A program made the translations under genes and the position numbers. DNA of 64,000 bases from Haloferula helveola (GTDB lineage Bacteria > Verrucomicrobiota > Verrucomicrobiia > Verrucomicrobiales > Akkermansiaceae). Location: the NCBI RefSeq assembly GCF_037076345.1, contig NZ_AP024702.1, positions 3,596,001-3,660,000 on the forward strand, given 5' to 3'. Of the stretch, positions 8,727-46,315 are shown piece after piece (the stretch's first letter is position 1; every line of letters starts with the position of its first letter). The notes below the pieces were generated by a model. That model was not told where the DNA came from. It did not search any database and worked only from the letters and a program-made list of their open reading frames with translations.

Positions 8727-10277
8727 TCAGGGTCCCGGTTCGTAGCGGTTCTCGCGGTAGATCCGGCGGACCTGGGCGTCGCTCAGGGCGCCTTCGATGA
8801 TGAACACCTCGTCGAGGGTGCCGCGGAAGTAGGTCTTCTTCGGCTCGTTCGAATAGACCAGCGGAGGGCCGAAGGTGAGCGGCTTGGAATAGGACAGGTC
8901 GGCCGGCCGTCTCGGCGGGCTGGGGTCGCCGAGTTGCTGGGTCGGCTCGTGTGGCACACCATTGATGTAGAAACGGAGCCCGCCGGCATCGTCGTCGCCA
9001 ACCTCGCCGGTGAAAACAACCGCGACGTGGTGCCAGACGCCATCCTGGAAATCGACGTCAACCGAGGACTGCTTCCGATGCCCCCAAGAACTCCGGAGAA
9101 ACGTGCCGTTCTTGCCATTCGGCGCGATCAGGAACTTCCACTGGTGGCTGTCGTTTACCGAGTACTGCGGGAACCCCCAGCTGGCGAGACTGCCGTAGTT
9201 GGGTTTTCCGTCCATCCGCACCCATGCGCAGAAGGTCAACGCTTGGGAGCCGAAGACTCCGGGCCAGTTGGTCCGGACCATGTCACCCTTGCCGTTGAAC
9301 GAGATCGCCTTGCCGAAGCGGCCCGGAACGATCCGCGTCGATGCATAGCGCCCGTCGGATTGCTTGGCGCGGGCGACGAGTGTCGAGAGCTGCGGGTGCT
9401 CGCCATCGACCTTGAGCTTGCCGTTCTCAACCGAATCGAAACTGAAGTGGAAGTAGGGCAGCCGGCCGGGCAGCTGGCGCGAGTAGTAGCCTTCGACCGG
9501 CGGGGCTTCGACGAGGTCGCCCTTGATTCCGATCGATCGCGACTCGCCGGCGACCAGCACCGCCTCATGTTTCATGCCCCGCAGGGAACGCGCTTCCACC
9601 CGTCCCTTCAGGACGTGGATCTGCTGGGTGACATCGGGAACGTGGACGACGACGAACTCGGTGCCGAGGTCCTTCACCAGAAGCGAGGACGCCTGAACCG
9701 TGAATCCGACCGCGGCTTGGGGCACTTCGAAGAAGCCCGTTCCTTCGTGAAGTTCGACGAACCCGTCATTGCGTACGGTGAGATTCGCGGGACCGGAGAG
9801 GACGGCCCGGACTCCGGACGGGAATTTCAGTTCGCTGACGCCCTGACGGACCTCGATGGTGGAGCCAGGGCGAAGTTCGTCGAGTGACCTGTTTCCGTCC
9901 GCGCCGTGGATCGATATGTGGGAGTCCGGTGTCGATGTGACGACGATGGGCTGCTTCTCGGTGGAGACGAGCGTCATGTAGAGCGCGGCTCCGAGAAGAA
10001 CGAAGATCGCGGCGGCGGTCCCGAGCGAGATGAACAGCTGGCGTTTTTGCCGCTCGCGGAGGATCTCATCGACGGGTGCCCGTTCCTGCACCGGGATCAT
10101 CGAGTGGCGCGATTCGAATTCCTGGGAAAGGTGGAAGTCGAGCCGCGCTTGGTCGCGGTAGATGTCGTGCAGGGACGGATCGAGGGTCAGCGCCGTCTCG
10201 AGCCGCTCGAAGTCGGCCTCGGAAATCGAGCCGTCGAAGAGCGCTTGCGTGAGTTGTTCGGCTTCGTCCCGGTTCAT
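8727..10277 (-). CDS. FecR-like anti-sigma/transmembrane protein with C-terminal LamG domain
   Basis: A 516-residue protein from the ATG at 10277. That codon overlaps the stop of the upstream sigma factor gene as ATGA, which favours this start over the longer frame beginning at 10316. The N-terminal ~80 residues (ALFDGSISEADFERLETAL…) resemble a cytoplasmic anti-sigma helical region. One membrane segment follows (LFISLGTAAAIFVLLGAAL). A FecR-type domain contains GSTIEVRQGVSELKFPSGV and LLVKDLGTEFVV. The last ~190 residues form a concanavalin/LamG domain (LTFCAWVRMDG, GVWHHVAVVFTG, LRFYINGV, FRGTLDEVFIIEGALSD) that probably binds carbohydrate outside the membrane. It likely controls the linked sigma factor in response to an extracytoplasmic glycan (inference). 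Confidence 0.85.
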   Translation of the reverse strand: MNRDEAEQLTQALFDGSISEADFERLETALTLDPSLHDIYRDQARLDFHLSQEFESRHSMIPVQERAPVDEILRERQKRQLFISLGTAAAIFVLLGAALYMTLVSTEKQPIVVTSTPDSHISIHGADGNRSLDELRPGSTIEVRQGVSELKFPSGVRAVLSGPANLTVRNDGFVELHEGTGFFEVPQAAVGFTVQASSLLVKDLGTEFVVVHVPDVTQQIHVLKGRVEARSLRGMKHEAVLVAGESRSIGIKGDLVEAPPVEGYYSRQLPGRLPYFHFSFDSVENGKLKVDGEHPQLSTLVARAKQSDGRYASTRIVPGRFGKAISFNGKGDMVRTNWPGVFGSQALTFCAWVRMDGKPNYGSLASWGFPQYSVNDSHQWKFLIAPNGKNGTFLRSSWGHRKQSSVDVDFQDGVWHHVAVVFTGEVGDDDAGGLRFYINGVPHEPTQQLGDPSPPRRPADLSYSKPLTFGPPLVYSNEPKKTYFRGTLDEVFIIEGALSDAQVRRIYRENRYEPGP

Positions 10278-10843
10278 GGGTGGATCCTCCCCACGGCGAG
10301 TTTGCTCCGGATGCACTTTTTGAGCGAGTTCCGGATTCGGAAAAGCGAGACCCGGAGCGCCCCGGCCGAGCGACCGGAGTCCTCGGCGAAATCCTCAATC
10401 GACTGCTCGCCTTCGTAGCGTAGCCGGACCAGTTCGCGATTCTTGTCGGAAAGCGACGCCAGGCACTCGCGAAGTGCGGTGCGGGTGCCCTCAAGCCGCT
10501 GCGGAGCCATTTCCTCCGGCTCACCGGCGAGGGAGTCCAAGAGCTCGTCGCTGAAAACCAGCCGCTGGTCGCGCTTCGAGCGGCGGTGGAACTCCAGCAC
10601 CCGAAAGCGCGCGACCGCAAAGGCCCAGTTGATGAAGCTCGTTCCGAGGGTGAACGAATCGCGCTTTTGCCACAGCAGCATCAGGGTTTCTTGCGTGACG
10701 TCTCGGACCGCCGGGTTGCCGGGCATCAGCGAGTGGATGAAGGCCCGGATCGAGTCCTGATGTTCGGTCAGCAAACGCACGAATTCGTGCTCCCGGGCAG
10801 GGCCGGTGGGCAGAACCGTCACGTTTTGCGGTTGGGCGGACAT
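10274..10843 (-). CDS. Sigma-70 family RNA polymerase factor (Rhodopirellula/Verrucomicrobium type)
   Basis: A 189-residue ECF-size sigma factor. Region 2 is visible at about residues 22–90 (FVRLLTEHQDSIRAFIHSLM, RDVTQETLMLLWQKRDSF, FINWAFAVARFRVLEFHRR). Region 4 lies at about 125–180 (LRECLASLSDKNRELVRLRY, SIEDFAEDSGRSAGALRVSLFRIRNSLKKC). It matches the subfamily described in Rhodopirellula and Verrucomicrobium whose genes are paired with FecR–LamG proteins. The start codon of the FecR–LamG gene overlaps the stop codon of this gene by 4 bases, so the pair is translationally coupled. Its promoter targets are not evident. Confidence 0.92.
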   Translation of the reverse strand: MSAQPQNVTVLPTGPAREHEFVRLLTEHQDSIRAFIHSLMPGNPAVRDVTQETLMLLWQKRDSFTLGTSFINWAFAVARFRVLEFHRRSKRDQRLVFSDELLDSLAGEPEEMAPQRLEGTRTALRECLASLSDKNRELVRLRYEGEQSIEDFAEDSGRSAGALRVSLFRIRNSLKKCIRSKLAVGRIHP

Positions 10844-10896: not shown

Positions 10897-11574
10897 TCAG
10901 CCTGCTAGATCGACGAATTGGCGTCGGGATTCCAGCAAATGGCGGCGCATCGCGGTGGATGCCTCGTCCTGCTGGCCGGCCTCGATGGCCTCGAAAATCC
11001 GCCGGTGGTGGTCGATCACTCCGCCATACCAGTCGTGATCGCCCCGGTTCGCCTGGGCGTAATCGATGCAGCGTTTCTCCAGGGCCCCGAGCAGCGCGGC
11101 ATAGATCCGATTGCCCGACGCCTCGGTGATCGCGAGGTGGAAGGCGATGTCGGCCTCACTGAAGCGATCGCGGTCGCCCCGCACCGCTTCCATCTGGTCG
11201 AGGGCCTTGCGGATCTTCGAAATCGCCCGGCTACCGGCGTGTTTGGCGGCGAGTCGAGCGCACTCGCCTTCGACAAGGATCCGGAAATCGATGAGTTCGA
11301 GGAAATCGGCCTCCTCGGCGAGCACGGAGTAGGTTTGGATCGCCGAGCCCAGCGTCTCGAGATTCGAGTCGGCGATGAAGGTGCCCGAGCCCTTCAGGGT
11401 CCGGAGCAACCCGCGGCCACGGAGCTGCTGGATCGCTTCCCGAATGACGGTGCGGCTGGCTTCGAAGCGGGCGCAGAGTTTTTCCTCCGACGGCAATCGC
11501 TCGCCCGGAGGAAGCTGGCCGGCAAGGATCTCCTGTTCGAGTTTTCCGGCGATCTGGGCGCTGAGGCGTTCCAT
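10897..11574 (-). CDS. GntR/FadR-family transcriptional regulator
   Basis: A 225-residue regulator from the ATG at 11574 (MERLSAQIAGKLEQEILAGQ). The longer frame to 11706 would run into the divergent gene at 11678 and adds no family sequence. A winged helix at about residues 1–70 contains LPPGERLPSEEKLCARFEASRTVIREAIQQLRGRGLLRTLKGSGTF-type GntR blocks. An all-helical FCD ligand-binding domain follows (LELIDFRILVEGECARLAA, FHLAITEASGN, DHHRRIFEAIEAGQQDEA, MRRHL). FCD domains bind small organic acids, often through a metal held by Asp/His. It is divergent from the ketoreductase/ACP operon with about 100 bp between, so it most likely represses that operon (inference). Confidence 0.9.
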   Translation of the reverse strand: MERLSAQIAGKLEQEILAGQLPPGERLPSEEKLCARFEASRTVIREAIQQLRGRGLLRTLKGSGTFIADSNLETLGSAIQTYSVLAEEADFLELIDFRILVEGECARLAAKHAGSRAISKIRKALDQMEAVRGDRDRFSEADIAFHLAITEASGNRIYAALLGALEKRCIDYAQANRGDHDWYGGVIDHHRRIFEAIEAGQQDEASTAMRRHLLESRRQFVDLAG

Positions 11575-11677
11575 GCGCCGAAAACCCTGCACGGTGGCGC
11601 AGCGGGACGCAACGCCGGGGTTGCCGACATGCGCGGCCGCCGCTTGCCAAACCTCGGCCCCCGGAAAGACTGGGAGC

Positions 11678-12403
11678 GTGCGAAGCATTCTCATCACCGG
11701 CGGCAATGGCGGACTCGGACTCGGGATCGGGCGCTACTTTCTGGAAAAGGACCCGGACGCGCGGGTCTGGCTAGGCGTTCGCTCCCGGCGCGACAAGGCG
11801 GAGGCGCTGGCTGGTGAGTTCGGCGACCGCTGCAAGCTGGTCGACCTCGAGGTGACCTCGTCCGAAGCTTGGGAGGCGGCCGTCGGACGGATCGTCGAGG
11901 AGGACGGTGGGATCGATGTGCTTGTCAACAACGCCGGGATGCACCGCGACGGTCTGCTGGCGACGATGGACGATGAGGCATGGAGCTCGGTGGTCTCCTC
12001 GAACCTCGACTCCGTTTTCCTCGGCTGCCGGGCGGTGATCCGCCCGATGATGTCGAAGCGATTCGGCCGGATCATCAACATCGCCTCGCTCAGCGCGGTG
12101 CTGCCGCCGCTCGGCCAGACGAACTACGCGGCGGCCAAGGCCGGGGTGGTCGCCCTGACCCGAACCCTCGCCAAGGAGGTCGGCCGTTCCGGAATCACGG
12201 TGAACGCGCTGATGCCCGGGTACATCGAGACCGAGGCCCTTTCCGACATGGATCCGGAGGCTGCGAAACGGGCCAAGGCGGGCATTCCGATGCGCCGTTT
12301 CGGCAAGCCCGAAGAGGTGGCTGCCGCGGTCTTCTTTCTCGCTTGTCAGGATGCGGGCTACGTCACAGGTTCCGCCCTGAAGATCGACGGCGGGATCTAC
12401 TGA
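11678..12403 (+). CDS. SDR-family 3-oxoacyl-[ACP] reductase-like protein
   Basis: A 241-residue short-chain dehydrogenase. I place the start at GTG 11678 (VRSILITGGNGGLGLGIG), with GGAAAG nine bases upstream; the open frame extends further but lacks family sequence. It has the TGGNGGLGLG cofactor motif, NNAG, and the catalytic S-x(12)-Y-x3-K set in IASLSAVLPPLGQTNYAAAKAG. PG near IETEALSDM and the final GSALKIDGGIY are typical of FabG-like ketoreductases using NADPH. The next gene encodes an acyl carrier protein, which supports an ACP-bound beta-ketoacyl substrate. It probably heads the operon that continues through the flippase and patatin genes. Confidence 0.9.
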   Translation: MRSILITGGNGGLGLGIGRYFLEKDPDARVWLGVRSRRDKAEALAGEFGDRCKLVDLEVTSSEAWEAAVGRIVEEDGGIDVLVNNAGMHRDGLLATMDDEAWSSVVSSNLDSVFLGCRAVIRPMMSKRFGRIINIASLSAVLPPLGQTNYAAAKAGVVALTRTLAKEVGRSGITVNALMPGYIETEALSDMDPEAAKRAKAGIPMRRFGKPEEVAAAVFFLACQDAGYVTGSALKIDGGIY

Positions 12404-12422
12404 GAATCAATTCACGACAACG

Positions 12423-12677
12423 ATGGCAGAAGGCGCGGAACTCCGACAGAAGATCAAGGAGATGATGATCGAAGAGCTGATGCTCGATTTCGAAGTGTCG
12501 GAGATCGAAAACGAAACCCCGATTTTCGGTGCAGACGGCCTCGGCCTCGACTCGGTAGACGCGCTCCAGCTTGTCGTCGCCATCGAAAAGCATTTCGGCC
12601 TCAAGATCGGCGATGCCGAGAAGGCCAAGTCGGTCCTCCAAAGCGTCGAGACGATCGCCAAGGCCATCGAGGGCTGA
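12423..12677 (+). CDS. Acyl carrier protein (phosphopantetheine-binding)
   Basis: An 84-residue protein with the typical four-helix carrier pattern. The attachment serine lies in LGLDSVDALQLVVAIEKHFG, and the DSVDALQL form is seen in carrier proteins of aryl-polyene-like and other secondary lipid pathways more than in housekeeping AcpP (DSLDTVEL). The C-terminal half KSVLQSVETIAKAIEG is also typical. It lies 19 bases after the ketoreductase and 27 bases before the flippase-like gene, so a dedicated acyl chain is probably built or carried here. No cognate ketosynthase I/II gene is in the operon. Confidence 0.88.
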   Translation: MAEGAELRQKIKEMMIEELMLDFEVSEIENETPIFGADGLGLDSVDALQLVVAIEKHFGLKIGDAEKAKSVLQSVETIAKAIEG

Positions 12678-12704
12678 CCCCAAGCGCCCCGTGGGGAGCA
12701 GGCG

Positions 12705-13709
12705 ATGAAAAAGTGGCTCCTCTTCGCGATCAAGCTGGTGCTGACCGGCGGCTGCCTGTGGTGGGCGCTGCGTGGCGTCGACTGGGAGGGCTCGATCCTT
12801 TCCCGCCCGTCGGAAATCCTGTGGGGCTGGCTGGTGCCGGGCGTGATCCTCGCGGGGCTGACCGTGGTGCTGACCGGTATCAGGCTGTGGCTGCTGCTCG
12901 CCGCGCAGAGCATCCGGATTTCCCTGCTGCGGGCGATCGAGCTGACCCTGATCGGTAATCTCTTCAACCTCGTGGCGGTCGGCGGAATCGGCGGTGACGC
13001 CGCCCGGATCTTTCTGCTCATCCGCGACCACCCGGAGCGCAAGCTGGCGGTCACCCTGACGGTGATGTTCGACCACTTGGTCGGACTGGTTGCGATGGCG
13101 CTGGTTTTCTTCGCACTCACGGCCGGTCGCTTCGACGCGCTGGCGAGCCAGAGCGCGGAAACCAAGGGCATCCTGCGCTTCGCTTGGGCGTTCTTCAGCG
13201 GCGGTGTCGCGCTGATGGCCCTGATGTTCGTGATGGCCTACCCGCCGATCAACAACCGTGTCCACGCCCGCAGCAAGAACTGGAAATTCTCGGCGATCCG
13301 GAAGCTGCCCGACGGCTTCGATGTCTACCGCCAGAAGTGGCGGCACGCCCTGCTCGCATTGGTGGCGGCGGCCATCATGCTGCCGGTTTACTACGCCACC
13401 TTCTGGTGCGGTGCCCGCGCCGCGGGTTCGATGGTCGATGCCGGGCCGGTGCTGGTCGCGATGCCGGTGGTCGACATGCTGAGCGCGCTGCCGCTTTCGA
13501 TTTCGGGCCTCGGGGTGCGGGAGATCTCGCTGAAGATCCTGATGGAAGATCTCACCGGAATGGCGCCGGACGTGGCGGTCGCGGCCGGGTTGATCGGCTT
13601 TTTCTGTTCGTTGGTTTGGGCGCTGCTCGGAGGCCTGCTTTTCCTGAGGCCGCGGGACCGTGCGAAGGTCGAGGAGATCGAAGAATTGGCCGTTGCGGAA
13701 GATGGGTGA
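12705..13709 (+). CDS. Flippase-like integral membrane protein (LPG-synthase TM domain, AglD/YbhN-type)
   Basis: A 334-residue polytopic membrane protein with about eight hydrophobic segments. Conserved blocks of the lysylphosphatidylglycerol-synthase TM/flippase-like family are present: GNLFNLVAVGGIGGDAARIFLL at about residues 83–104, a VMFDHLVGLVAM block, and MLSALPLSISGLGVREISL near residue 260. Family members move or modify lipid-linked substrates across the inner membrane. A GGGGAG ribosome binding site lies 6 bases before ATG 12705. Its last 8 bases overlap the start of the patatin gene, so translation is coupled. In context it may flip the acyl product of the ACP/ketoreductase unit (inference). 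Confidence 0.85.
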   Translation: MKKWLLFAIKLVLTGGCLWWALRGVDWEGSILSRPSEILWGWLVPGVILAGLTVVLTGIRLWLLLAAQSIRISLLRAIELTLIGNLFNLVAVGGIGGDAARIFLLIRDHPERKLAVTLTVMFDHLVGLVAMALVFFALTAGRFDALASQSAETKGILRFAWAFFSGGVALMALMFVMAYPPINNRVHARSKNWKFSAIRKLPDGFDVYRQKWRHALLALVAAAIMLPVYYATFWCGARAAGSMVDAGPVLVAMPVVDMLSALPLSISGLGVREISLKILMEDLTGMAPDVAVAAGLIGFFCSLVWALLGGLLFLRPRDRAKVEEIEELAVAEDG

Positions 13710-14553
13710 GCGAATTGCCATCTGCCTCGGCTCGTCGCTGCTCGGCCACTACGCGCACTGCGGGTTTCTGGATGCCTTCGACCAAGCCGGAGTGACGCCG
13801 GTGAAGGTCGCTGGGTCGTCGGCCGGTGCCTTGGCCGGCGCACTCTGGTGTGGCGGTCTGCGGGGTGAGGCCCTGCTCGATGAAATCTGCACGCTCAACT
13901 TTCGCCGGAGCTTTTTCGACCTGTTCGCGCCGCTGAGGCTGCCGGGGGTGATCACGTGGTCATACGCCAACGGGATCCTCGGCGGCAACCGGATGAAGAA
14001 GCGGCTGGCCCGGCTGCTCGGCGATCGGAGGATCGAGGATCTCAAGGGCCCGGACCTCCAGATCGCGGTCGCCAACCTGACCCGGCGACGCAGCGAGCTC
14101 CGCACCGAAGGGCCGCTGGTTGAGTTTGTCCTCGCCAGCCTGTCGCTGCCGCTGCTTTACCGCGCCCGACAGATCGATGGCGACTGGTATGTCGATGGTG
14201 GCGTGGCGAATGAGCAACCCTTCATCCAGTGGCTCGGGGATCCGGAGGTCGAGACCGTCCTGGTGCATCGCGTTCGCTATCCCATCGCTCCCCCGGAGCG
14301 TTTCAGTCCCGCCGCGGTGATGGGGGTCTGCCATGCGATCCCGAATGCGGAGCTGTGGGAGCAGCGGCGGGAGCTGGCCGAGGCATCGGGAAAGAAGGTC
14401 GTGTTTCTTGATACGAACCTTCCCGCACAGAAGATTTTCCATCGTGCCGCCGATGCCCGAATGCGCATCGAAGCGGGCCGAGAGACCGCCCGGCAGTGGT
14501 TGGAGGCGGGAAGCGGAACGCCCTCGCCCCGTGGTGAACCGATGGCCTACTGA
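13702..14553 (+). CDS. Patatin-like phospholipase/acyl hydrolase
   Basis: A 283-residue protein from ATG 13702, which overlaps the upstream stop by 8 bases. The catalytic dyad is visible: the nucleophile elbow VAGSSAGALAG (GxSxG) near residue 37, and the Asp of VDGGVANEQP near residue 165. An oxyanion-type glycine-rich stretch CLGSSLLGHYAHCGFLDA at the N-terminus also fits patatin/RssA proteins. No signal peptide or membrane span, so it acts in the cytoplasm or at the inner face of the membrane. With the ACP, ketoreductase and flippase it suggests lipid remodelling or release of an acyl product. Confidence 0.88.
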   Translation: MGERIAICLGSSLLGHYAHCGFLDAFDQAGVTPVKVAGSSAGALAGALWCGGLRGEALLDEICTLNFRRSFFDLFAPLRLPGVITWSYANGILGGNRMKKRLARLLGDRRIEDLKGPDLQIAVANLTRRRSELRTEGPLVEFVLASLSLPLLYRARQIDGDWYVDGGVANEQPFIQWLGDPEVETVLVHRVRYPIAPPERFSPAAVMGVCHAIPNAELWEQRRELAEASGKKVVFLDTNLPAQKIFHRAADARMRIEAGRETARQWLEAGSGTPSPRGEPMAY

Positions 14554-14599
14554 CGGTCGGGCACTATCCGGGAAAGGGCGCGTTGCGTGACTTAAACCA

Positions 14600-15304
14600 T
14601 CAGGCCCGCTTCCGACGGCGGATCCAGCGGACCAGCGCGATTGCCGGCAGCGCGATGATCGGGATGGCTGCCGGGATCACCCACCACGGCAGGGGAATCT
14701 TGGCACGGAAACGCGTGACGATCGGGTCCCTCAGCGCCTGCCCCAATGTTCTTTTCCAGATCAGGGTCTTGCCGCGGTCGGTCACCTCGTCGGCGTTGTG
14801 CTCCTTGGCGGCCGTCGGCAGGTGGATCACGTATTCCATGATCCGCGAGTCCCGGTCGTCCGAGCCGATGAACAGAGCGGCCGGGCCAAGCGCATCGCCC
14901 ATTTCAATCCTGCGGCTGACCTTCACGTCGAGGCCCGCGACGACGACATCGAAACTGCCCGACAGGTCCTTGCCCGCTTCCGGGAGATCCTCGAACGCCT
15001 CCGTTTCCTGCAGGTCCATCAGCGACAGCATCGAGTCGGTCGAGGCTTCCATGTGAACGCGGAATCCGTCGTCCGATGGCGTCACCGTGAACGCATCGAG
15101 CCGGAGGTCGGGTGCTTCCGCGAGCAGCTTGTCGATCTCCTCGCGCATGCCGGCTTCGCCTCCGACGAGGGCCATCGCCGCTGACGGCACGGTGTAGTCG
15201 AGCATCGCGCGGCCGCCGCCATCCGCCTGGATCCAGATTTCCTCGCGGATATCGAAGCACGAACTCAGTAGCAGCGAGAGGGCGAGGAGCAGCAGACGTT
15301 TCAT
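14600..15304 (-). CDS. Putative lipoprotein with C-terminal membrane anchor (LppM-like)
   Basis: A 234-residue protein. The N-terminal MKRLLLLALSLLLSSC is a lipoprotein signal with a lipobox ending at Cys16. The body is a beta-rich domain (AMLDYTVPSAAMALVGG, DAFTVTPSDDGFRVHM, SRIMEYVIHLP). A C-terminal transmembrane helix (WWVIPAAIPIIALPAIALV) is followed by the basic tail RWIRRRKRA. The plan resembles LppM-type lipoproteins. It is transcribed against the flanking biosynthetic genes, which it separates, and nothing ties it to their pathway. Confidence 0.75.
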   Translation of the reverse strand: MKRLLLLALSLLLSSCFDIREEIWIQADGGGRAMLDYTVPSAAMALVGGEAGMREEIDKLLAEAPDLRLDAFTVTPSDDGFRVHMEASTDSMLSLMDLQETEAFEDLPEAGKDLSGSFDVVVAGLDVKVSRRIEMGDALGPAALFIGSDDRDSRIMEYVIHLPTAAKEHNADEVTDRGKTLIWKRTLGQALRDPIVTRFRAKIPLPWWVIPAAIPIIALPAIALVRWIRRRKRA

Positions 15305-15392
15305 GCGGACGCCGCATCAGTAGCGTGGTGACCCGGCTTGGCAAGGACCGGCCGTGCTTGTGCAGTCCGGACAAACGGCGATGGTTCCCGCG

Positions 15393-16025
15393 ATGAAACG
15401 TCTGGTGGAGCCGGAGATCCTCGACACCTTGCCCTCGGATGATCCGAGGGCGATCGCCAGTCGCGTTGATCTGCGGCGCATCAACTTCGTGATGGGGAAC
15501 GAGCGTTGGATCCTGCGCGAAGTGGCCAAGCATCCGCAGGCGGCGGCAAAGGGAATCGTCGAGTGGGGCGCCGGCGAGGGATGCCTGTTGGAGAGAATGT
15601 CACGCTTCGGACCCGCGACCGGCGTTGATCTGGTCCCGCGTCCCGACGGGCTGCCGGATGCGATCGATTGGCAATCGGGGGACGTGATGAAGGCTGCCGG
15701 AATGCGTGGAGGAATCCTCGTCGCCAACCTGTTCCTGCACCACTTCGAGGCCAATGCTCTCCGGGAATTGGGTCGTCGGATGTCAGGCTTCGATGTGGTG
15801 ATCGCGGTGGAGCCGTGGCGCTCGCCCGGTTCGCTGGCCTTGGGGTTCAGCATGCAGCCTTTGGTCACACGGGTCACGAGGCACGACATGCTGGCGAGCA
15901 TCCGTGCAGGCTTCGCGAGGCGTGAACTTGCGGGGCTTCTCGGGCTCGATGCCGGTGGCTGGCGCATTGGTGAGAAGGCGTCTTTTCGGGGCAGTCTCCG
16001 TTGGCGGGCCATGAAGAAAAAGTGA
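15393..16025 (+). CDS. Class I SAM-dependent methyltransferase of a type III PKS locus
   Basis: A 210-residue protein from ATG 15393 (MKRLVEPEILDTLPSDDPRAIASR); an in-frame ATG at 15354 is possible. IVEWGAGEGCLLERMSRFG at about residue 53 is the SAM-binding GxGxG motif. GILVANLFLHHFEANALREL and VIAVEPWRS follow as later methyltransferase strands. The opening 'EPE-hDtLP-DDPRA-SR-DLRRIN—MGN' signature recurs in methyltransferases next to type III polyketide synthases and FAD monooxygenases, which is exactly the order here. It probably methylates the aromatic or pyrone product (inference). Confidence 0.8.
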   Translation: MKRLVEPEILDTLPSDDPRAIASRVDLRRINFVMGNERWILREVAKHPQAAAKGIVEWGAGEGCLLERMSRFGPATGVDLVPRPDGLPDAIDWQSGDVMKAAGMRGGILVANLFLHHFEANALRELGRRMSGFDVVIAVEPWRSPGSLALGFSMQPLVTRVTRHDMLASIRAGFARRELAGLLGLDAGGWRIGEKASFRGSLRWRAMKKK

Positions 16026-16073
16026 GCTGACGATCGGAGTGGCGCCGACGGGGGAGGATGCTAGCTTGCGGCG

Positions 16074-17090
16074 TTGAATGAGGGACTGACGGTAGCGGGC
16101 GGTGGCCTGGCGGGATTGGCGCTGGCGCTCGGATTGCGTCGGCGCGGAGTGCCGGTCACGGTTCATGAGGCGGCCGCCTATCCTCGCCACCGGGTGTGCG
16201 GGGAGTTCATTTCGGGAGTCAGCGGGGACACTCTTTCGGCGCTTGGCTTGGTTGAGGACCTGGCCGATGCCCACCGCCACCGATCCGTGTCGTGGCACCG
16301 CAAAGGTCGCGAGCTGATGTCGACCGAACTGCCCGAGCCGGCGGTCGCGATTTCCCGGCATCGGCTGGATGATCGCTTACGGCAACGTCTGGAATCGGCC
16401 GGTGGGGTGGTGCACCAGAAGTCGCGGGTTGCCTGTGAGCCGCGTGATGGATTGGTGTGGGCGGCCGGACGATTGCCCACCCGCGGCTCGTGGATCGGAC
16501 TGAAGTGCCACCTGCTTGATTTTTCAATGAGCGACGGCCTGGAGATGCATCTCGGCGACAACGGCTACCTCGGTCTGACGCCTGTCGAAGATGGACGCGT
16601 CAATGCCTGCGGCTTGTTCCGTCTCGATCGTGGCATCCGGGCCGACGGCAGCGACCTGCTGTTGGAATATCTCCGCCGGGGCGGAAACGGCGAGTTGTCG
16701 GAACGCATCGCTGCGGCCGGGCGGGATGAGAGATCCTTCCTCGGTGTCGCCGGATTCGAGCTCGGCTGGCAGTCGGGGAATCCGGAGCTGTGCGCCGTTG
16801 GCGACGCGATCGGGATGATTCCTCCCTTCACCGGTAATGGCATGAGCATGGCTTTGGAAGGCGCCGAGATGGCGCTTCAGCCGCTGGAGGAGTGGAGCGC
16901 CGGGCAGCTTGCGTGGCCCGATGCGGTGACCTCGATCCACTCCGCAGCGCGCTCACGCTTTCGTCGCCGTCTCCGGCACGCGCTCGCGATGCACCGGCTT
17001 TTGCTTCATGCCCGCGGGCAATCACTGCTTGAGGGAATCGCCCGCTCGGGTCTTTTGCCATTCCGCCCGCTGCTTTCGCTCGTCCGTTGA
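16074..17090 (+). CDS. FAD-dependent monooxygenase/geranylgeranyl-reductase-like oxidoreductase
   Basis: A 338-residue flavoprotein. [21 protein letters not shown] at the N-terminus is the ADP-binding GxGxxG fold, and [19 protein letters not shown] is the following conserved block. Near residue 240 [26 protein letters not shown] is the GD motif contacting FAD. The start is a TTG at 16074, 48 bases after the methyltransferase, with a purine-rich GGGGGAGG at 16050–16057 rather far upstream. Its stop is 2 bases before the type III PKS ATG. It likely hydroxylates or oxidises the polyketide, for example a resorcinol to a quinone (inference). Confidence 0.85.
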
Positions 17091-17092
17091 TC

Positions 17093-18121
17093 ATGTTCCT
17101 CGAATCCATCGCCACCGCCTTGCCGCGGCATGCCTTCACCCAGCCGGAGTGCCTCGACGCACTTCGCCAATCGGGCCTTCTTGATTCCCTCAAGCCACGC
17201 TCCGGATCGATCCTGAACAAAGTGCTGTCGAACGGCGCCTCGGGAATCGGCACCCGCCATTTCTGCCTGCCGGAAATTGCGCCGGTCGTCGAACGCGGCG
17301 CCCAGGAGCTGAACGAGTTCTTCGAGCGCGAGGCGCCGGTGCTGGCGGGAGAGGCCCTGTCGAAGGCGCTCGATGAAGCGGGTCTCGCGGCCACGGATCT
17401 CGATGCGGTCCTGATCTGCACCTGCACCGGCTACCTTTGCCCGGGGGTGAGCAGCCATGTCGCGGAGAAACTCGGGATCCGGCCCGATGCCTACCTGCAG
17501 GACCTGGTCGGTCTCGGTTGCGGCGCCGCGATCCCGATGATGCGGAGTGCCGAGGGGCTGCTTGCGGCCAAGCCTGGGTCAAAGGTCGCGACCATTGCGG
17601 TGGAAGTCTGCTCGGCGGCCTTCTATGCCGACGACGATCCGGGTGTGCTGATCTCGCTGTGCCTGTTCGGCGATGGTGCGGCGGCGGCGATCTGGTCGGA
17701 CAAGCCGGGCGACGGAAGATGGCGGGCAGGGAATTTCTCGACGGTCCACCACCCGCAGAACCGAGAGAAGATCCGGTTTGTGAATGCGGACGGGAAGTTG
17801 CGCAACCAACTTGACCGTGCGGTGCCCGGACTCGCAGCGGAGGCGGTATCGGAACTCTACGGCAAACGTAGTGGTGAGCCGGACCGCGTGCTCGCGCACG
17901 CCGGAGGGCGTGACGTGATCGAGGCGATCGAGGAAGTCCTGCCGCACCGGCTTGATGACACCCGCGATGTGCTCGAGACATGCGGCAACATGAGCAGTCC
18001 GTCGGTCATGTTCGCGCTCGAACGTGCGCTTGCCGGAGCGAACGGCGACTCGCGCTGGTGGCTCACCGCCTTCGGTGCCGGATTCGCCGCCCACTCATGC
18101 GAGATGTGGCGGGAATCATGA
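17093..18121 (+). CDS. Type III polyketide synthase (chalcone/stilbene synthase family)
   Basis: A 342-residue thiolase-fold enzyme. The catalytic triad of the family is complete: Cys143 in [11 protein letters not shown], His269 in [10 protein letters not shown], Asn299 in [21 protein letters not shown] and [11 protein letters not shown] are further hallmarks. Such enzymes condense malonyl-CoA with an acyl-CoA or acyl-ACP starter to give alkylresorcinols or alkylpyrones. I take ATG 17093; a TTG at 17087 overlaps the upstream stop. With the adjacent FAD monooxygenase and methyltransferase it forms a common bacterial type III PKS trio. The starter may come from the ACP/ketoreductase operon upstream (inference). 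Confidence 0.92.
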
Positions 18122-18122
18122 A

Positions 18123-18195
18123 TGGTGCGCGGACTTCAGTCCGCTTTGACTGATCCGGTGCCCGCGAATCCAAGCGGACTGAAGTCCGCGCACCA
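18123..18195. repeat. Palindromic intergenic repeat, TTCAG family (long arms)
   Basis: A perfect 24-bp inverted pair (18123–18146 and 18172–18195) with a 25-nt spacer. Each arm contains GCGGACTTCAGTCCGC, again palindromic around TTCAG. Compared with 1785–1841 the stem bases differ (CGGAC/GTCCG against CCGGC/GCCGG) but pairing is kept. It starts 2 bases after the type III PKS stop and ends 9 bases before the convergent eboC-like stop, so it could also act as a bidirectional terminator without T-runs. Confidence 0.8.
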
Positions 18196-18204
18196 CAAGT
18201 GGGG

Positions 18205-19185
18205 CTATGTCGCCGGTGTGAAGCGCTGCAGCAGAAGCGCCGACAGGAAAGCCAGCGGTGGCAGGATGAACGCCAGTCCGCCCGCGAGTGAGAGTGACTC
18301 CCCCGGGACAGAGAACGTGGCTCCGAGTGGAACCGCAGCGATGAAGTCGGTCAGCGGTATCCCGGCGAGCAGGGCCGAGACGAAGCGTGGGATCGGCTTG
18401 CGGAAGACAGTCAGCGAAAGACCGAGCCAGATCGCGAATGAGACCATGCCGGCGACTCCAAGTAGCGGATACCATGGGATCCACCACGCTGACATGGCGG
18501 CCAGTGGCAGGAACAGCATCGAACGCGAAAGGATGAGCGTGCCGACCGGCGGGTGCTCGAGGCTTTCACAGCGCGCCGACAGGGAGAGTCCGGAGATGTA
18601 GATCAAAAGCCCGAGCGCGTGGGTCGCGACGAAGGCGATGCTGCGGACCGTGTCGGCGACGACATCCGCCTGAGTCACTCCGTAGGCATGGAGATCGATC
18701 GTGTCGACGGCCTCGGACGGCCACGCGGCGACGAATCCCATCACATACAGTCCGGCGCGGCAGAGGCCCATCGGCAGCACGCCCCACACGGTGGCCTTGT
18801 GGATGCGCGTGTAGATGGCGATGCAGACGAGCACCGCGATGGCGGTGAAGCCCGACCGCGGTCCTTGCGAAAAGCCGAGGCCGATCCCTGCCATACCGAG
18901 GACGACCGCGCTGGTCAGGTAGGTGTCCGCCGAGATCAGCCCTGACGGCAGCGCCCGCTCAGGCCGATGCGTCTTGTCCCAGTCCCGGTCAAACCAGTCG
19001 TTGGCGAGGTTGCCCGCGAAGTAGAGGGCGAGGCCCGCCAGCACCAGTGGCACCACGACCGGTCCCACCGCCTGCATGTCGCCCCAGTAGTAGCGCCCGA
19101 GCAGGTAGCCGATCGTCACGTTGCACACGACGCTCGGCGCGTTGGCGACGCGCAGGCTGGCGAGGAGGGCGGCGGTTCGGCTCAC
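18205..19185 (-). CDS. eboC: UbiA-like prenyltransferase family protein, EboC-type
   Basis: A 326-residue polytopic membrane protein with about eight or nine hydrophobic segments and a GTG start at 19185. The signature FAGNLANDWFDRDWDKTHRPER at about residues 56–77 carries the N-D-x-x-D-x-x-x-D metal-diphosphate site of the UbiA superfamily. The length and the partner gene fit EboC of the Ebo metabolite-traffic cluster rather than a quinone prenyltransferase. It follows eboE by 9 bases on the same strand, so the two are coupled. It converges on the type III PKS gene. It may move or modify the polyketide at the membrane (inference from Ebo clusters in cyanobacteria and pseudomonads). Confidence 0.78.
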   Translation of the reverse strand: MSRTAALLASLRVANAPSVVCNVTIGYLLGRYYWGDMQAVGPVVVPLVLAGLALYFAGNLANDWFDRDWDKTHRPERALPSGLISADTYLTSAVVLGMAGIGLGFSQGPRSGFTAIAVLVCIAIYTRIHKATVWGVLPMGLCRAGLYVMGFVAAWPSEAVDTIDLHAYGVTQADVVADTVRSIAFVATHALGLLIYISGLSLSARCESLEHPPVGTLILSRSMLFLPLAAMSAWWIPWYPLLGVAGMVSFAIWLGLSLTVFRKPIPRFVSALLAGIPLTDFIAAVPLGATFSVPGESLSLAGGLAFILPPLAFLSALLLQRFTPAT

Positions 19186-19194
19186 GGCAGGAAG

Positions 19195-20337
19195 TCAGTC
19201 TCCGGTGCGTTCCCGAACCCAGCGGTATTCGCCGGCGATCTGCTCTTCGACCGGGCGCTGCATCTCGGGCGGAAGGACGCCCCAGGTGTAGGTCTCGATC
19301 TCGAAGTGGGTGCACATTTCCGGGTCGTCGAGGCAGAGCTTCAGGGTGTCCGAGGCCTGCACGCGCGTCGATTTCAGCGGTTCTTCCGGATCGTGGTCGA
19401 GCGGGATGTGGAAGTGGACCCGCCATTGCTCGGCGTCATTGTCCGGCCCGTACGCGGCAATCGCGTCGGGCAGGTCGGTGTAGCGGAGGATGCGTCCGTC
19501 CGGATGACGTTCGATCACCTGGTGGAGGTAGGTCGGTTCGTCGAAACGGGCCGCGGTGTCGATCGCCGCGTAGCCCCGCGGATCGAGGGCGAGGGCGGCG
19601 GACAGGTGGATTTTCGAAATCCGGAGTCCTTCGCGACGCAGAACCTCGAGCGAGCTACGGGTGTCCTCGTACTCGAGCGCGAAGTGGCAGCAGTCGTAGT
19701 TGATGCCGATGCGCCGCTTCACCTTCTCGTGGTCCTGGGCGTCGTCGAGGAGTCTATCAAAGAACCGCAGCGTCTCCTCGGTGTTCTCGAAGTGACCGAG
19801 CGGTTCGGGTTCGAGACCGAGGTGGAGATCGGTCCCTGAGACCTCGCTGAGGGCGTCGATGAAGTCCGCCAGCTCAATCAGGTTCTCGCGGATCACGCTC
19901 TCATCCGCGCCGAATGCCTTGAATGACCCTGGCAGGGTCGAAACCGATCCGCCGGCCGACTTCGGCGCGAGCTCGGAGATGATCGTGAAGAGCTCCTTGG
20001 TGTATTCGACCCGCGCGGGTGAGGTCCAGTCGGGCTGGTAGACCTTCTCCTTCACCCGGGTGCCGTGGAAGTCGCCGTAGGGAAAGCCGTTGATGGTGAA
20101 AACGTAGGCATTCTCCTCCGCCAGCCAGTCCTTGAAGCGGGCGAGGCGGTCGCCCTGCAGCAATTCCGCGGCAGCGCGGGCGGAGAGCCTGAGGCCGATG
20201 GCGAACGGGTTACCGTCGGCTGCCACCAGGTCGCGGACCCGCAGCGTGTGCAGGGTCAGGGCGCCGAGCGTTTCCTCCCAGCTCTCCGCCGGGTGGATGT
20301 TGGTGCAGTAGGCGAGGTGCCCGCAGGGGAATTTCAT
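19195..20337 (-). CDS. eboE: TIM-barrel metabolite traffic protein, EboE-type
   Basis: A 380-residue cytoplasmic protein from ATG 20337 (MKFPCGHLAYCTNIHPAESW). Typical EboE blocks are present: YCTNIHPAESWEETLG, FAIGLRLSARAAAEL, YVFTINGFPYGDFHG, GSVSTLPGSFK, LGLEPEPLGHFENTEE and INYDCCHFALEYED, the last two holding probable metal ligands of the xylose-isomerase-like fold. In Ebo clusters this protein works with UbiA-like EboC and TatD-like EboB in export of a secondary-metabolite precursor. Here eboC follows directly, and an EboB-like gene lies 3 kb away. The gene is divergent from the rhomboid gene with 86 bp between. Confidence 0.82.
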   Translation of the reverse strand: MKFPCGHLAYCTNIHPAESWEETLGALTLHTLRVRDLVAADGNPFAIGLRLSARAAAELLQGDRLARFKDWLAEENAYVFTINGFPYGDFHGTRVKEKVYQPDWTSPARVEYTKELFTIISELAPKSAGGSVSTLPGSFKAFGADESVIRENLIELADFIDALSEVSGTDLHLGLEPEPLGHFENTEETLRFFDRLLDDAQDHEKVKRRIGINYDCCHFALEYEDTRSSLEVLRREGLRISKIHLSAALALDPRGYAAIDTAARFDEPTYLHQVIERHPDGRILRYTDLPDAIAAYGPDNDAEQWRVHFHIPLDHDPEEPLKSTRVQASDTLKLCLDDPEMCTHFEIETYTWGVLPPEMQRPVEEQIAGEYRWVRERTGD

Positions 20338-23262: not shown

Positions 23263-24072
23263 TCAGGCCGACGGGAGTTCGAAGTTCGGGCACTGGCTGA
23301 GGAACCGCTTCGGGTTCTCGAACAGGATCTTGTCGATCTGCTCCGCGCTGTGCTTGCGCTTCTTCATTTCGAAGCCGCACTTCACCACCGCGAGCGGATC
23401 GGAAATTCCCCAGTCGCAGGCCGAGTTCAGCCACAGGCGGGCGCCTTCGTGAGTTTCGAGGATGTCGATCGCCCGGTTCGGCGTGCATTTGCTTTCGGGA
23501 TAGAGCGTCATGCCGGCCCAGTATCCCTGGTCGAGTACGAGATCCACCGTATGTTCCTCGACGTGGTCGATGATCACGCGGTTGCGGTCGAGCGAACCGA
23601 AGTTGGCCAACGAGTCGAGCATCAGCTTGGTGCCCTTTCGCTTGTCTTCGAGGTGCGGCGTGTGGATGAGGATCGGGAGGTCGCGGTCGAGGGCGATCTG
23701 GACGTGCTCCTCGAAGATCGCAAGCTCGCTGCGGGTGTTCTTGTTGAGTCCGATCTCGCCGATGCCGAGGACGGTCGGCTTGTCGATGAACTCGGGAATC
23801 AGGGCCATCACCTCGCGGGCGAATCCGGCATCTTCCGCTTCCTTCGGGTTGATGCACAGCCAGCAGAAGTGCGGGATTCCGAATTTGGCGGCTCGCTTCG
23901 GCTCGTAGTCGGTCAGCTGCCGGTAGTAGTCGTAGAAGCCTTGTGGCGAAGACCGGTCGAAGCCGGCCCAGAAGGCCGGCTCGCAGATCGCCTCGCAGCC
24001 GGCCAGGGCGAGCTTCTCGTAGTCATCCGTCGTCCGGCTGACCATGTGGGCGTGGGGCTCGATGTAGCGCAT
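23263..24072 (-). CDS. eboB: TatD-family metal-dependent hydrolase, EboB-type
   Basis: A 269-residue TIM-barrel hydrolase. Metal-site motifs in order: IEPHAHM near the N-terminus (HxH), LGIGEIGLNKN (Glu) at about residue 121, LPILIHTPHLEDKRKG (His), VIIDHVEEHT (His) and LNSACDWGISDP (Asp). The 'EPHAHM—RTTDDYE-LALAG-EAICEPAFW-G' opening is that of the TatD-like EboB proteins rather than of the nuclease TatD. The gene comes 15 bases after a small uncharacterised protein gene and 30 bases before DUF1080. It is 3 kb from the eboE–eboC pair, so the set is split. The assignment to the Ebo system rests on motif recognition and proximity. Confidence 0.75.
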   Translation of the reverse strand: MRYIEPHAHMVSRTTDDYEKLALAGCEAICEPAFWAGFDRSSPQGFYDYYRQLTDYEPKRAAKFGIPHFCWLCINPKEAEDAGFAREVMALIPEFIDKPTVLGIGEIGLNKNTRSELAIFEEHVQIALDRDLPILIHTPHLEDKRKGTKLMLDSLANFGSLDRNRVIIDHVEEHTVDLVLDQGYWAGMTLYPESKCTPNRAIDILETHEGARLWLNSACDWGISDPLAVVKCGFEMKKRKHSAEQIDKILFENPKRFLSQCPNFELPSA

Positions 24073-24087: not shown

Positions 24088-24351
24088 TCAGGGTTGGGGA
24101 GCGCCGAAGGCACCTTGGATGGTGGCCTTTTCGGCGGGCTCGATGGATTCGTCGGAGAGGGCGTCGAGCACTCCCTTGGCTCGTCCGGGTTCGTCGGAAA
24201 GCAGGATCGGCAGGGCCTTTTTCAGGGCGTCGAAGCGGAAATCGGCCTCACCCGGATGCCGCTCCACGCGGTCGAGGAACGCGGCGATGTCGATCAGCTT
24301 GCACCGCGCGTCCATGAAATGGAGGTCGAGGATCTCTTTCTTGCTGGGCAT
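24088..24351 (-). CDS. Small protein of unknown function preceding the EboB-like gene
   Basis: An 87-residue soluble protein from ATG 24351 (MPSKKEILDLHFMDARCKLIDIAAFLDRVERH); the longer start at 24387 adds only non-conserved sequence. It is predicted all-helical, with a distinctive ARCKLIDIAAFLDRVERHPGEADFRFDALKKAL stretch that I believe recurs in small proteins beside TatD-like hydrolases, but I cannot name a domain. The gap to the EboB-like gene is 15 bases, which suggests co-translation. It is too short to be a full EboA protein. Confidence 0.65.
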   Translation of the reverse strand: MPSKKEILDLHFMDARCKLIDIAAFLDRVERHPGEADFRFDALKKALPILLSDEPGRAKGVLDALSDESIEPAEKATIQGAFGAPQP

Positions 24352-45208: not shown

Positions 45209-46315
45209 TCATTGGTTCTTCGGCGGGGGACCGATGGTCCCGCCTTCGACAAACTTGGCTTTTGTGAAGCTGCGGCGGCGATCCTCTTTGCCGCGGGCGA
45301 CATTGGCCGCCCACCGCACGGCTCGCCGCGCGAGGGGGCTTCCATCCCAGTGAATGTGGGCAACCGTAGGCCGGCACCAAGCAAACACGGGATCCGGATC
45401 GTCGCAGACCAACGAAACGTCGCGAGGCGCCAGGATGCCGCGCTGGGCCAGGTGTTGCTGAACCGCGATGAATGTCGAAGACTCCCCGACGATCAGGGCA
45501 GTGGGAGGAGTGTGTCGGAAGAGCCGGTCGAGCAACTCCTGAAGGCCTTCCGCATCTTCTCTCCAGTCCGGCAGATTGTAGCTGCCGTGCTTGATGCCGT
45601 GCCTGTCCAGTTCCTCAAGGAAGACTTTTTCAATCCGGCCGGGCTCGGGTTTGCGTAGTACCTCCCGGTCAATCATCACGATCCGGCGGTGGCCAAGTTC
45701 GACAAGCCTGCCTACCAGCGTGCGCATCGAAGACTCCTTATCCGGGCCGGTGCTGGCGATCGGGACGCCCCGCCTGCGCCCCGCGAAGGCGAAGGTGGGC
45801 AACCGGTGCTCGGCAAACCACTCGAGCACCTCACGGGAGCCGGACGATACTACCCATGCATCTGCCGGGGAGTTCTCCACGAGTCGCGCGATCCTCCTGG
45901 GGTTCATGCCCAGTTCCGTCAGGGTCTTCGGTGCGAAGCCCGCGGAGTGTCCGGCATTCAGAAGGCGGTGCTGGAGATCGACGTTGTAGTAGATCTTCGA
46001 GTCGTCCGGTGCGTAAAGCAGGATGCCGACACGGAGGCCGGGGACCGTCAGCCGCTCCGGAAGAACGATGCGGCGCTTTCTTCCCGCTCCCTTGGGCACG
46101 AGGATGCCTTCCTTTTCGAGTTGGGACAGGGCGGTCTCCATGGTCATGCGACCGACACCGAACTGCTGGGACAGCGCCCGCCCGCCTGGCATCGATCCGG
46201 ACCACACCCCGCGGTTGATCTGCTCGCGGAGATGCTCCGCGACCTGTTCGGAGGCCGAAAGGACCCGGAGTTCGCTCACCGGGGAATCCCTCCACGCCAG
46301 ATGTTGGCTTGTCAA
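45209..46315 (-). CDS. GntR-type HTH regulator with LacI-type sensor domain
   Basis: A 368-residue regulator. The N-terminal winged helix covers about residues 20–85 (SASEQVAEHLREQINRGVWSGSMPGGRALSQQFGVGRMTMETALSQLEKEGILVPKG). A LacI/periplasmic-binding domain follows (LRVGILLYAPDD, DAWVVSSGSREVLEWFAEHRLPTFAFAGRRRG, VGRLVELGHRRIVMIDRE, PTALIVGESSTFIAVQQHLAQRGILAPRDVSLVCDDPDPVFAWCRPTVAHI), typical of sugar-responsive repressors. It is divergent from the PASTA-domain secreted protein, with two dyads in the 190-bp gap. It most likely controls that gene and possibly the esterase and sulfatase genes beyond. Confidence 0.9.
   Translation of the reverse strand: MTSQHLAWRDSPVSELRVLSASEQVAEHLREQINRGVWSGSMPGGRALSQQFGVGRMTMETALSQLEKEGILVPKGAGRKRRIVLPERLTVPGLRVGILLYAPDDSKIYYNVDLQHRLLNAGHSAGFAPKTLTELGMNPRRIARLVENSPADAWVVSSGSREVLEWFAEHRLPTFAFAGRRRGVPIASTGPDKESSMRTLVGRLVELGHRRIVMIDREVLRKPEPGRIEKVFLEELDRHGIKHGSYNLPDWREDAEGLQELLDRLFRHTPPTALIVGESSTFIAVQQHLAQRGILAPRDVSLVCDDPDPVFAWCRPTVAHIHWDGSPLARRAVRWAANVARGKEDRRRSFTKAKFVEGGTIGPPPKNQ

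Follow-up and report, generated by a model that had tools for sequence, protein, structure and literature searches.

The locus described here raises the question whether its genes serve one biosynthetic pathway. It lies in a window of 64,000 nucleotides (the whole stretch of DNA analysed, C1:3596001-3660000, C1 being the only contig of the 5.68-Mb Haloferula helveola genome), and the span in question covers positions 10897-20337. Module A encodes a FabG-like ketoreductase (KR), a stand-alone acyl carrier protein (ACP), a flippase-like membrane protein of the LPG_synthase_TM family and a patatin. Module B encodes a methyltransferase (MT), an oxidoreductase dependent on flavin adenine dinucleotide (FAD) and a type III polyketide synthase (PKS). 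Module C consists of genes for EboC-like and EboE proteins together with an EboB-like gene and a short companion. An initial annotation had joined most of these genes into one pathway for a resorcinol or quinone lipid. This single-pathway reading is not supported by the distribution of the genes in related genomes. We consider it on balance probable that the span consists of three lipid or aromatic modules that are transcribed separately and inherited largely separately, and that stood side by side ancestrally, at least where module A, an intervening lipoprotein gene and module B are concerned.

Module A and a distant ketosynthase locus

The comparison set comprised 57 genomes, the window genome and 56 relatives (relatives' genomes are labelled G0xx, loci Lxxx); those with a name belong to Haloferula, Luteolibacter and other Verrucomicrobiaceae/Akkermansiaceae, and 18 genomes represent the genus of the window. 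A close homologue of the PKS, counted as present above 350 bits, was found in 37 of the 57 genomes, including 17 of the 18 of the same genus (G016 is without it), and the best score in the other 20 was at most 105 bits. Eight of these 20 possess a distant type III PKS-like protein with 28-34% identity (84-105 bits).

The ACP of module A (at least 60 bits) occurs in 21 of the 37 genomes with the PKS and in 13 of the 20 without it; no association is apparent (Fisher p = 0.58, a description more than a test for genomes that are related), and this count includes 19 genomes in which only the ACP was sought and one partial match (G056). The profile of module A matches that of a type II system instead. 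Among 38 genomes, i.e. the 37 with the PKS and G016, all chosen from the 57, the ACP (at least 93 bits), the flippase-like protein and a chain-length-factor-like protein (CLF; E <1e-50) have an identical presence set of 22 genomes, which are 17 of the 18 of the genus (G003 lacks them) and G028, G029, G042, G049 and G054. In G028 and G042, which represent two further genera, the genes for a ketosynthase (KS), CLF, FabG, ACP, flippase and patatin are found within 11 kb, in G028 accompanied by genes for an AMP-ligase and an LPLAT acyltransferase. In the window genome, 212-218 kb separate the patatin gene from the KS, CLF, AMP-ligase and LPLAT genes at C1:3822752-3828894. Inspection of the translations by eye showed a Cys-His-His set in the KS and no Cys in the CLF (C1:3826664-3827869 and 3827872-3828894). 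Because of the identical ACP, flippase and CLF profiles and the clustering in G028 and G042, module A probably belongs to a type II system of aryl-polyene-like make-up that is split between it and the distant KS and CLF. The earlier proposal that ACP, ketoreductase, flippase and patatin serve the neighbouring PKS is not supported, their profile matching KS/CLF and showing no association with the PKS.

Residue invariance was counted on near-full-length orthologues only (length filter): the Ser137, Tyr150 and Lys154 positions of FabG are invariant in 21 of 21 sequences, as is the ACP serine, Ser44 (21/21), and the Gly, Ser and Asp residues of the patatin are invariant in 15 of 15. The best NCBIfam match of FabG is 3-oxoacyl-ACP reductase, below the cut-off. 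The ACP is 80-88% identical in 16 other genomes of the genus, and the flippase gene adjoins fabG-acp in all 17 same-genus loci, the window included, though not in G049. The description of the ACP as non-housekeeping agrees with the presence of an AcpP-like sequence elsewhere in the genome, at C1:4116614-4116817, recognised by eye among ten PP-binding matches. A literature search returned no report joining an ACP, a ketoreductase and an LPG synthase in one gene cluster.

A second ACP and an FAD oxidoreductase adjoin module A in G028 and G054, and a homologous FAD oxidoreductase with an ACP is encoded in the window genome at C1:1686388-1687817 (L186 6389-7818); this pair at C1:1.686 Mb may form a third part of the split system. 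At C1:3756022-3759848 (L185 4023-7849) patatin and ACP genes form another island, together with genes for an AMP-ligase and a weak condensation-domain-like protein. PP-binding and KS matches at C1:1410886-1418694 and C1:753667-760620 fall inside frames of 3508 and 2814 amino acids, which are likely large modular synthases. Near the KS/CLF locus, at C1:3836217-3836807 (L183 2317-2907), a Pycsar effector-type membrane protein is encoded (PF18967, 1.3e-30).

Module B

The PKS was described as having an intact Cys-His-Asn triad, and indeed Cys143, His269 and Asn299 are invariant in all 49 sequences aligned (window and 48 orthologues past the length filter). The window protein aligns to type III PKSs in the PDB with E-values from 1.4e-30, and its best match among curated models is DpgA (118 bits, cut-off 425). 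By profile and predicted fold, the product of the first gene of the module is a class I S-adenosylmethionine (SAM) methyltransferase: Pfam gave no match, a 40-sequence profile matches SAM methyltransferases in the PDB (best E 4.1e-7), and Foldseek with the structure model (pLDDT 97) gave mostly methyltransferases among the 50 matches listed. The FAD protein resembles the geranylgeranyl reductase superfamily by model score, below the cut-off.

The tight order of the three genes noted before was found again, with gaps of 48 and 2 bases, and it is widespread. The trio MT-FAD-PKS is contiguous and in the same order in 32 of the 37 PKS genomes, the window included. This holds for 16 of the 17 same-genus PKS genomes (in G004 a contig end breaks the trio) and for 16 of the 20 outside the genus, where G024 and G034 have the PKS alone, G043 has an FAD gene downstream and no MT, and G052 has an FAD gene on the opposite strand and no MT. 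Among 14 further named loci, seven have the trio, five (with 3-10 kb of upstream sequence) have the PKS alone and two are too short upstream. PKS homologues of 60-63% identity that lack the methyltransferase and FAD genes are found at L054, L063, L065, L066, L067 and L071. G016, the only same-genus genome without the PKS, encodes a full-length methyltransferase homologue (39%) beside eboC (L141 7106-8700), possibly a remnant of module B. As a more distant set, the plasmid pSBC2-3 of Caballeronia sp. SBC2 carries PKS, MT, FAD, ACP and β-ketoacyl-ACP synthase genes in a row (L220 9001-13708), the first three with 42%, 29% and 26% identity to their window counterparts.

The order MT-oxidoreductase-type III PKS is reported for 58 of 96 planctomycetal PKS genes, and a planctomycetal PKS expressed in a heterologous host yielded pentadecyl- and heptadecylresorcinols; the product gained one methyl group when the two remaining Gimesia genes were co-expressed (PMC10896814, as far as the accessible part of that paper goes). 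Since the make-up and order of module B are those of hidABC and the planctomycetal operon, an alkylresorcinol-type lipid with further decoration is the best guess for its product by analogy, and the earlier assignment of the trio to a methylated resorcinol-type lipid is in line with this.

Neighbourhood of modules A and B

The refuting condition set with the initial annotation, that the two halves of the locus are not co-located in relatives, has a mixed outcome. Among the 16 same-genus genomes with both modules, A and B are adjacent in seven (G000, G002, G004, where the contig ends inside the trio, G007, G009, G012 and G015) and in none of the five outside the genus, as judged on about 9 kb of flank where contigs allowed. 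Between them stands the lipoprotein gene, which the initial annotation had omitted. Its product has a lipobox-like start and a C-terminal helix, and the best PDB match of its model (pLDDT 87) is the folded domain of Mycobacterium tuberculosis LppM (E 1.2e-8, TM-score 0.45 by query length). This gene is tail to tail with module A in G014 and G016, and head to head with module B in G001, G003, G005, G006, G008, G010, G011 and G017.

A complete A-lipoprotein-B-C arrangement occurs on each of the two deep branches of the genus in a seven-protein tree (the window on one side, G007 and G009 on the other); this tree was built from the modules' own proteins, not from independent markers, and node support is 55-100. 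Parsimony leans toward an ancestral state for the A-lipoprotein junction (5 versus 6 changes) and the lipoprotein-B junction (3 versus 4), more strongly if gains are costlier than losses, and ties at equal cost for the full A-lipoprotein-B block (5 either way) and the B-C junction (4 either way). We thus regard the two single junctions, A to lipoprotein and lipoprotein to B, as probably ancestral to the genus, and read A-lipoprotein-B as an old block that is now coming apart.

The regulator divergent from fabG was proposed to switch the PKS locus, for which we found no support. Orthologues of gntR were found in eight module A loci, the window included. In four of these, all in relatives and with 70-75% identity (G006, G008, G009 and G010), gntR stands divergent before genes for RbsD, a TIM-isomerase, an alcohol dehydrogenase (ADH) and a kinase, followed by fabG, with other genes between the sugar genes and fabG in G006 and G010. 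The kinase gene is the sole sugar gene left at gntR in G012, and in the window, G013 and G017 gntR adjoins fabG. These sugar genes were assigned to families in G008 and named by similarity elsewhere. The G007 locus has kinase and ADH genes at the edge of the stretch, which ends before any gntR. If the sugar genes had been lost, the position of gntR in the window would be accounted for with no part in the control of lipids. The idea that FabG is a 5-ketogluconate reductase belonging to the sugar operon was considered and dropped, FabG staying with the ACP in loci without sugar genes. At L133 189-3664, and in the orthologous stretches of L134, L045 and L132, a GntR gene diverges from genes for RbsD/FucU, a TIM-isomerase, a zinc ADH and a gluconokinase-like protein, and fabG follows either at once or after a few genes.

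It remains unlikely, then, that all these genes form one pathway in which ACP and FabG supply a starter, the PKS trio makes a resorcinol or quinone lipid for release by the patatin and export by flippase and Ebo proteins, and GntR acts as the switch. The adjacency of all parts in the window, and in G007 and G009 except for gntR next to fabG, is what such a pathway would give; the Caballeronia plasmid combines a related PKS, MT and FAD gene with ACP and β-ketoacyl-ACP synthase genes, and HidC is described as starting from an acyl-ACP (PMC8086630, in the portion available). The profiles tell otherwise: besides the absent A-PKS association, 16 of the 37 PKS genomes lack module A, whose profile follows the CLF, and in relatives the GntR gene heads a sugar operon. 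Nor do we take the ACP and KS genes of the Caballeronia plasmid to show that module A works for module B, the plasmid ACP being closer to the likely housekeeping ACP than to that of the window and the kinship of the KS being only general.

Module C

Of the EboC- and EboE-like genes reported downstream, the second is secure, its product scoring above the NF035939 cut-off (the Pfam TIM-barrel match is below cut-off), and the first less so: the EboC-like protein reaches 82.1 bits with the EboC model, under the cut-off of 250, and its UbiA motif (Asp63, Asp66 and Asp70) is invariant in 24 of 24 sequences. The EboB-like gene and the short gene next to it lie beyond the region covered by the initial annotation. 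Three genes, for rhomboid, TIM-barrel and 3-keto-disaccharide-hydrolase proteins, separate eboE from the EboB-like gene. In nine relatives, namely G014 and eight genomes that each come from a different other genus, an EboB-like gene is close to eboE, and in eight of these nine the short gene adjoins it; no such EboB-like gene was found near eboE in the stretches read of the remaining same-genus genomes. The EboA model NF035938 had no match in the window genome, nor in any control genome.

EboE is present in 52 of the 57 genomes, 34 of the 37 with the PKS and 18 of the 20 without it, and is so common that its profile says little. The suggestion that Ebo proteins export the PKS lipid may be correct, but a function specific to the PKS is not indicated: EboE has a different main substrate, being encoded in 18 of the 20 genomes that lack this PKS. 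We therefore regard as improbable a cooperation of modules B and C in which EboC prenylates the resorcinol and the ebo set carries the product across the membrane, the score of the EboC-like protein under its model cut-off being a further point against it. Such a cooperation would fit the tail-to-tail arrangement of PKS and eboC in seven of the 17 same-genus PKS genomes, the 12-kb distance between them in G024, and the situation in G023, a genome of another genus, in which one eboC lies in two pieces at two contig ends, one beside the PKS and one beside eboE, which suggests the same PKS-eboC-eboE order. The EboC homologue Ubi-297 is reported to farnesylate 8-hydroxyquinoline-2-carboxylic acid, a phenolic quinoline (PMC9235831), and one hidABC-like cluster to include a prenyltransferase (PMC8086630), both according to the parts of these papers at hand. 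In Nostoc, the available text describes each of five deleted ebo genes as needed for the scytonemin monomer to reach the periplasm (PMC6282210). A literature search for an ebo cluster together with a type III polyketide synthase found nothing.

Proposed functions and alternatives

From the observed genes, catalytic residues, neighbourhoods and co-occurrence we infer every product and every transport step of the following scheme. In module B, the PKS would make an alkylresorcinol from a long-chain acyl thioester and malonyl-CoA, which would then be methylated and oxidised as in hidABC and the planctomycetal operons. For module A and the distant locus, the AMP-ligase would load an acid onto the ACP, KS and CLF would extend the ACP-bound acid with the KR reducing the chain, and patatin or LPLAT and the flippase may release or export the product. 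Module C would be a reduced ebo set.

Several points weigh against this scheme of three modules. The identity of the module A profiles is partly phylogenetic, since 17 of the 22 genomes belong to a single genus; the agreement is informative for G003, in which all three proteins are missing, and for the five genomes outside the genus that have all three. ACP or flippase and CLF are on different contigs in three of these five: G029, G054 (fabG, acp and flippase together, CLF on another contig) and G049 (acp, flippase and CLF on three contigs). No 3-hydroxyacyl-ACP dehydratase was found among the 15 family-searched proteins (about 30 kb around KS/CLF) or in the span, and no MMPL/RND exporter or LolA-like chaperone among the same 15 proteins, no dedicated genome search having been made. 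An antiSMASH run on Luteolibacter soli is given as yielding a type III PKS and no aryl polyene in the available part of that paper (PMC11427321). Module B is not always a trio, since G024 and five of the named loci (PKS 60-63% identical) have the PKS without MT and FAD, and its likeness to hidABC and the planctomycetal operons is one of gene types and order, HidC not having been compared directly. Finally, the adjacency of A and B in 7/16 genomes and of B and C in 7/17 (probably also in G023) is more than we would expect for unrelated modules.

This adjacency leaves a small chance for a hybrid lipid, in which a polyene-like acid from module A and the distant KS/CLF would be joined to the resorcinol of module B, as in flexirubin or arcuflavin; genomes with a single module would make the unjoined halves. 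The probably ancestral A-lipoprotein and lipoprotein-B junctions are consistent with it, arcuflavin is described as a hybrid of a polyene and a dialkylresorcinol with polyene genes in two unlinked loci (PMC3949708, in part), and four strains are yellow or pale yellow in a table of the Luteolibacter soli paper (PMC11427321, in part). These are points of adjacency and analogy; neither a dehydratase nor an ester-forming enzyme was identified, a yellow colour has many causes, and the modules are often apart or single. Equally doubtful is a full flexirubin-like pigment system of the Verrucomicrobiota, with the type III PKS providing the phenolic half, the split KS/CLF-KR-ACP system a polyene acid that is joined to it or given to the PKS as starter, and the LPG_synthase_TM flippase, LppM-fold lipoprotein and reduced ebo set replacing MMPL/LolA export. 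No polyene-resorcinol hybrid of this kind is described in the titles and abstract starts of the matches listed in our literature search.

Patatins and flippase-type proteins act on lipids. The least likely alternative is that module A modifies ordinary fatty acids, FabG and ACP borrowing housekeeping acyl chains for a hydroxyacyl membrane lipid moved by the flippase, with KS/CLF unrelated; this would suit the lipid-acting proteins, the missing dehydratase among the proteins searched near KS/CLF and a match of the ACP to an ornithine-lipid ACP model (36 of 130 bits, far below cut-off), and is opposed by the identical profiles in 22 of 38 genomes and by the location of module A genes close to KS/CLF in G028 and G042.

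With three separate modules as the preferred reading, the locus is a case of a conserved neighbourhood that suggests a pathway which phylogenetic profiles take apart. The most useful result is that the ACP-KR-flippase-patatin unit gains likely partners in KS, CLF, AMP-ligase and LPLAT. If this is true, a polyene-like pathway is split over loci in 17 of 18 genomes of the genus, and tools that look at single clusters could miss it.

Gene map

The genes named in the initial annotation are present as open frames with intact catalytic residues, and have Pfam matches above curated cut-offs except for the methyltransferase and EboE (Table 1). Likely start positions are 11574 for GntR and 20337 for EboE. 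In module A the gaps are 19, 27 and -8 bases, the patatin gene overlapping the flippase gene by 8 bases, and eboC and eboE are 9 bases apart on the minus strand. Modules A and B cannot be one operon because the lipoprotein gene on the other strand separates them; PKS and eboC are tail to tail, which together rules out a single operon for everything, and A, B and C make up three or more transcription units. Immediately to the west of the span, at 8727-10843, the translations read by eye indicate an ECF-type sigma factor and an adjoining FecR-like/LamG-type protein. At 45209-46315 the window encodes another GntR regulator, distinct from the first, which has a periplasmic-binding-protein-like domain.

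Table 1. Genes of the span, of the adjoining ebo set and of the distant KS/CLF locus (window positions unless C1 is given)
Feature	Position	Strand	Evidence
FCD-family GntR regulator	10897-11574	-	Pfam FCD 6e-29, GntR 3e-20; divergent from fabG
A: FabG-like SDR ketoreductase	11678-12403	+	adh_short_C2 4e-55
A: stand-alone ACP	12423-12677	+	PP-binding 1.6e-8; Ser44
A: LPG_synthase_TM flippase-like membrane protein	12705-13709	+	Pfam 1.1e-35
A: patatin-like hydrolase/acyltransferase	13702-14553	+	Patatin 1.8e-22; GXSXG Ser40, Asp165
LppM-fold lipoprotein (predicted), between A and B	14600-15304	-	AlphaFold pLDDT 87; PDB match to LppM domain
B: class I SAM methyltransferase (by profile and fold)	15393-16025	+	Profile versus PDB 4.1e-7; model pLDDT 97; Foldseek
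B: FAD-dependent oxidoreductase	16074-17090	+	FAD_binding_3 1.8e-8
B: type III PKS	17093-18121	+	Chal_sti_synt_N 7e-15; Cys143-His269-Asn299
C: EboC-like UbiA prenyltransferase	18205-19185	-	UbiA 5e-17; NDxxDxxxD motif
C: EboE TIM-barrel metabolite-traffic protein	19195-20337	-	NF035939 420.6 bits, cut-off 250
C: EboB-like TatD-family hydrolase	23263-24072	-	TatD_DNase 1e-8; no EboB model used
C: short conserved protein beside eboB, eboG candidate	24088-24351	-	No Pfam match; position only
AMP-ligase	C1:3825332-3826573		Within distant KS/CLF locus

Comparison with known systems

The comparisons below rest on the parts of the cited papers that were available. Module C shares with the ebo operon (PMC5133447, PMC6282210) EboE, EboC-like and EboB-like proteins and a short companion, as eboA/eboG elsewhere, and differs in being interrupted by rhomboid, TIM-barrel and 3-keto-disaccharide-hydrolase-type genes. 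Module B has the same three enzyme types in the same order, with the PKS last, as hidABC of hierridin biosynthesis in cyanobacteria and the alkylresorcinol operon of Planctomycetota (PMC10896814, PMC8086630); the host phylum is another one, and the flanking genes here are a lipoprotein gene and, in some cases, ebo genes.

By gene content, module A and the distant locus share with aryl polyene biosynthesis (ApeO/ApeC/ApeQ/ApeE-F/ApeH/ApeD; PMC8253772) a KS with a CLF-like partner, a KR, a stand-alone ACP, an AMP-ligase and an LPLAT. The differences from the aryl polyene systems are that family searches of proteins at the two loci brought up no dehydratase, thioesterase, MMPL exporter or LolA, that the genes are split over two loci about 215 kb apart, and that an LPG_synthase_TM protein and a patatin accompany the KR and ACP. 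With the flexirubin/arcuflavin systems (PMC3949708) the genome has in common that polyene-type type II genes and resorcinol-forming genes occur together and that the polyene part is spread over unlinked loci; the resorcinol enzyme here would be a type III PKS, whereas DarA/DarB make the resorcinol there.

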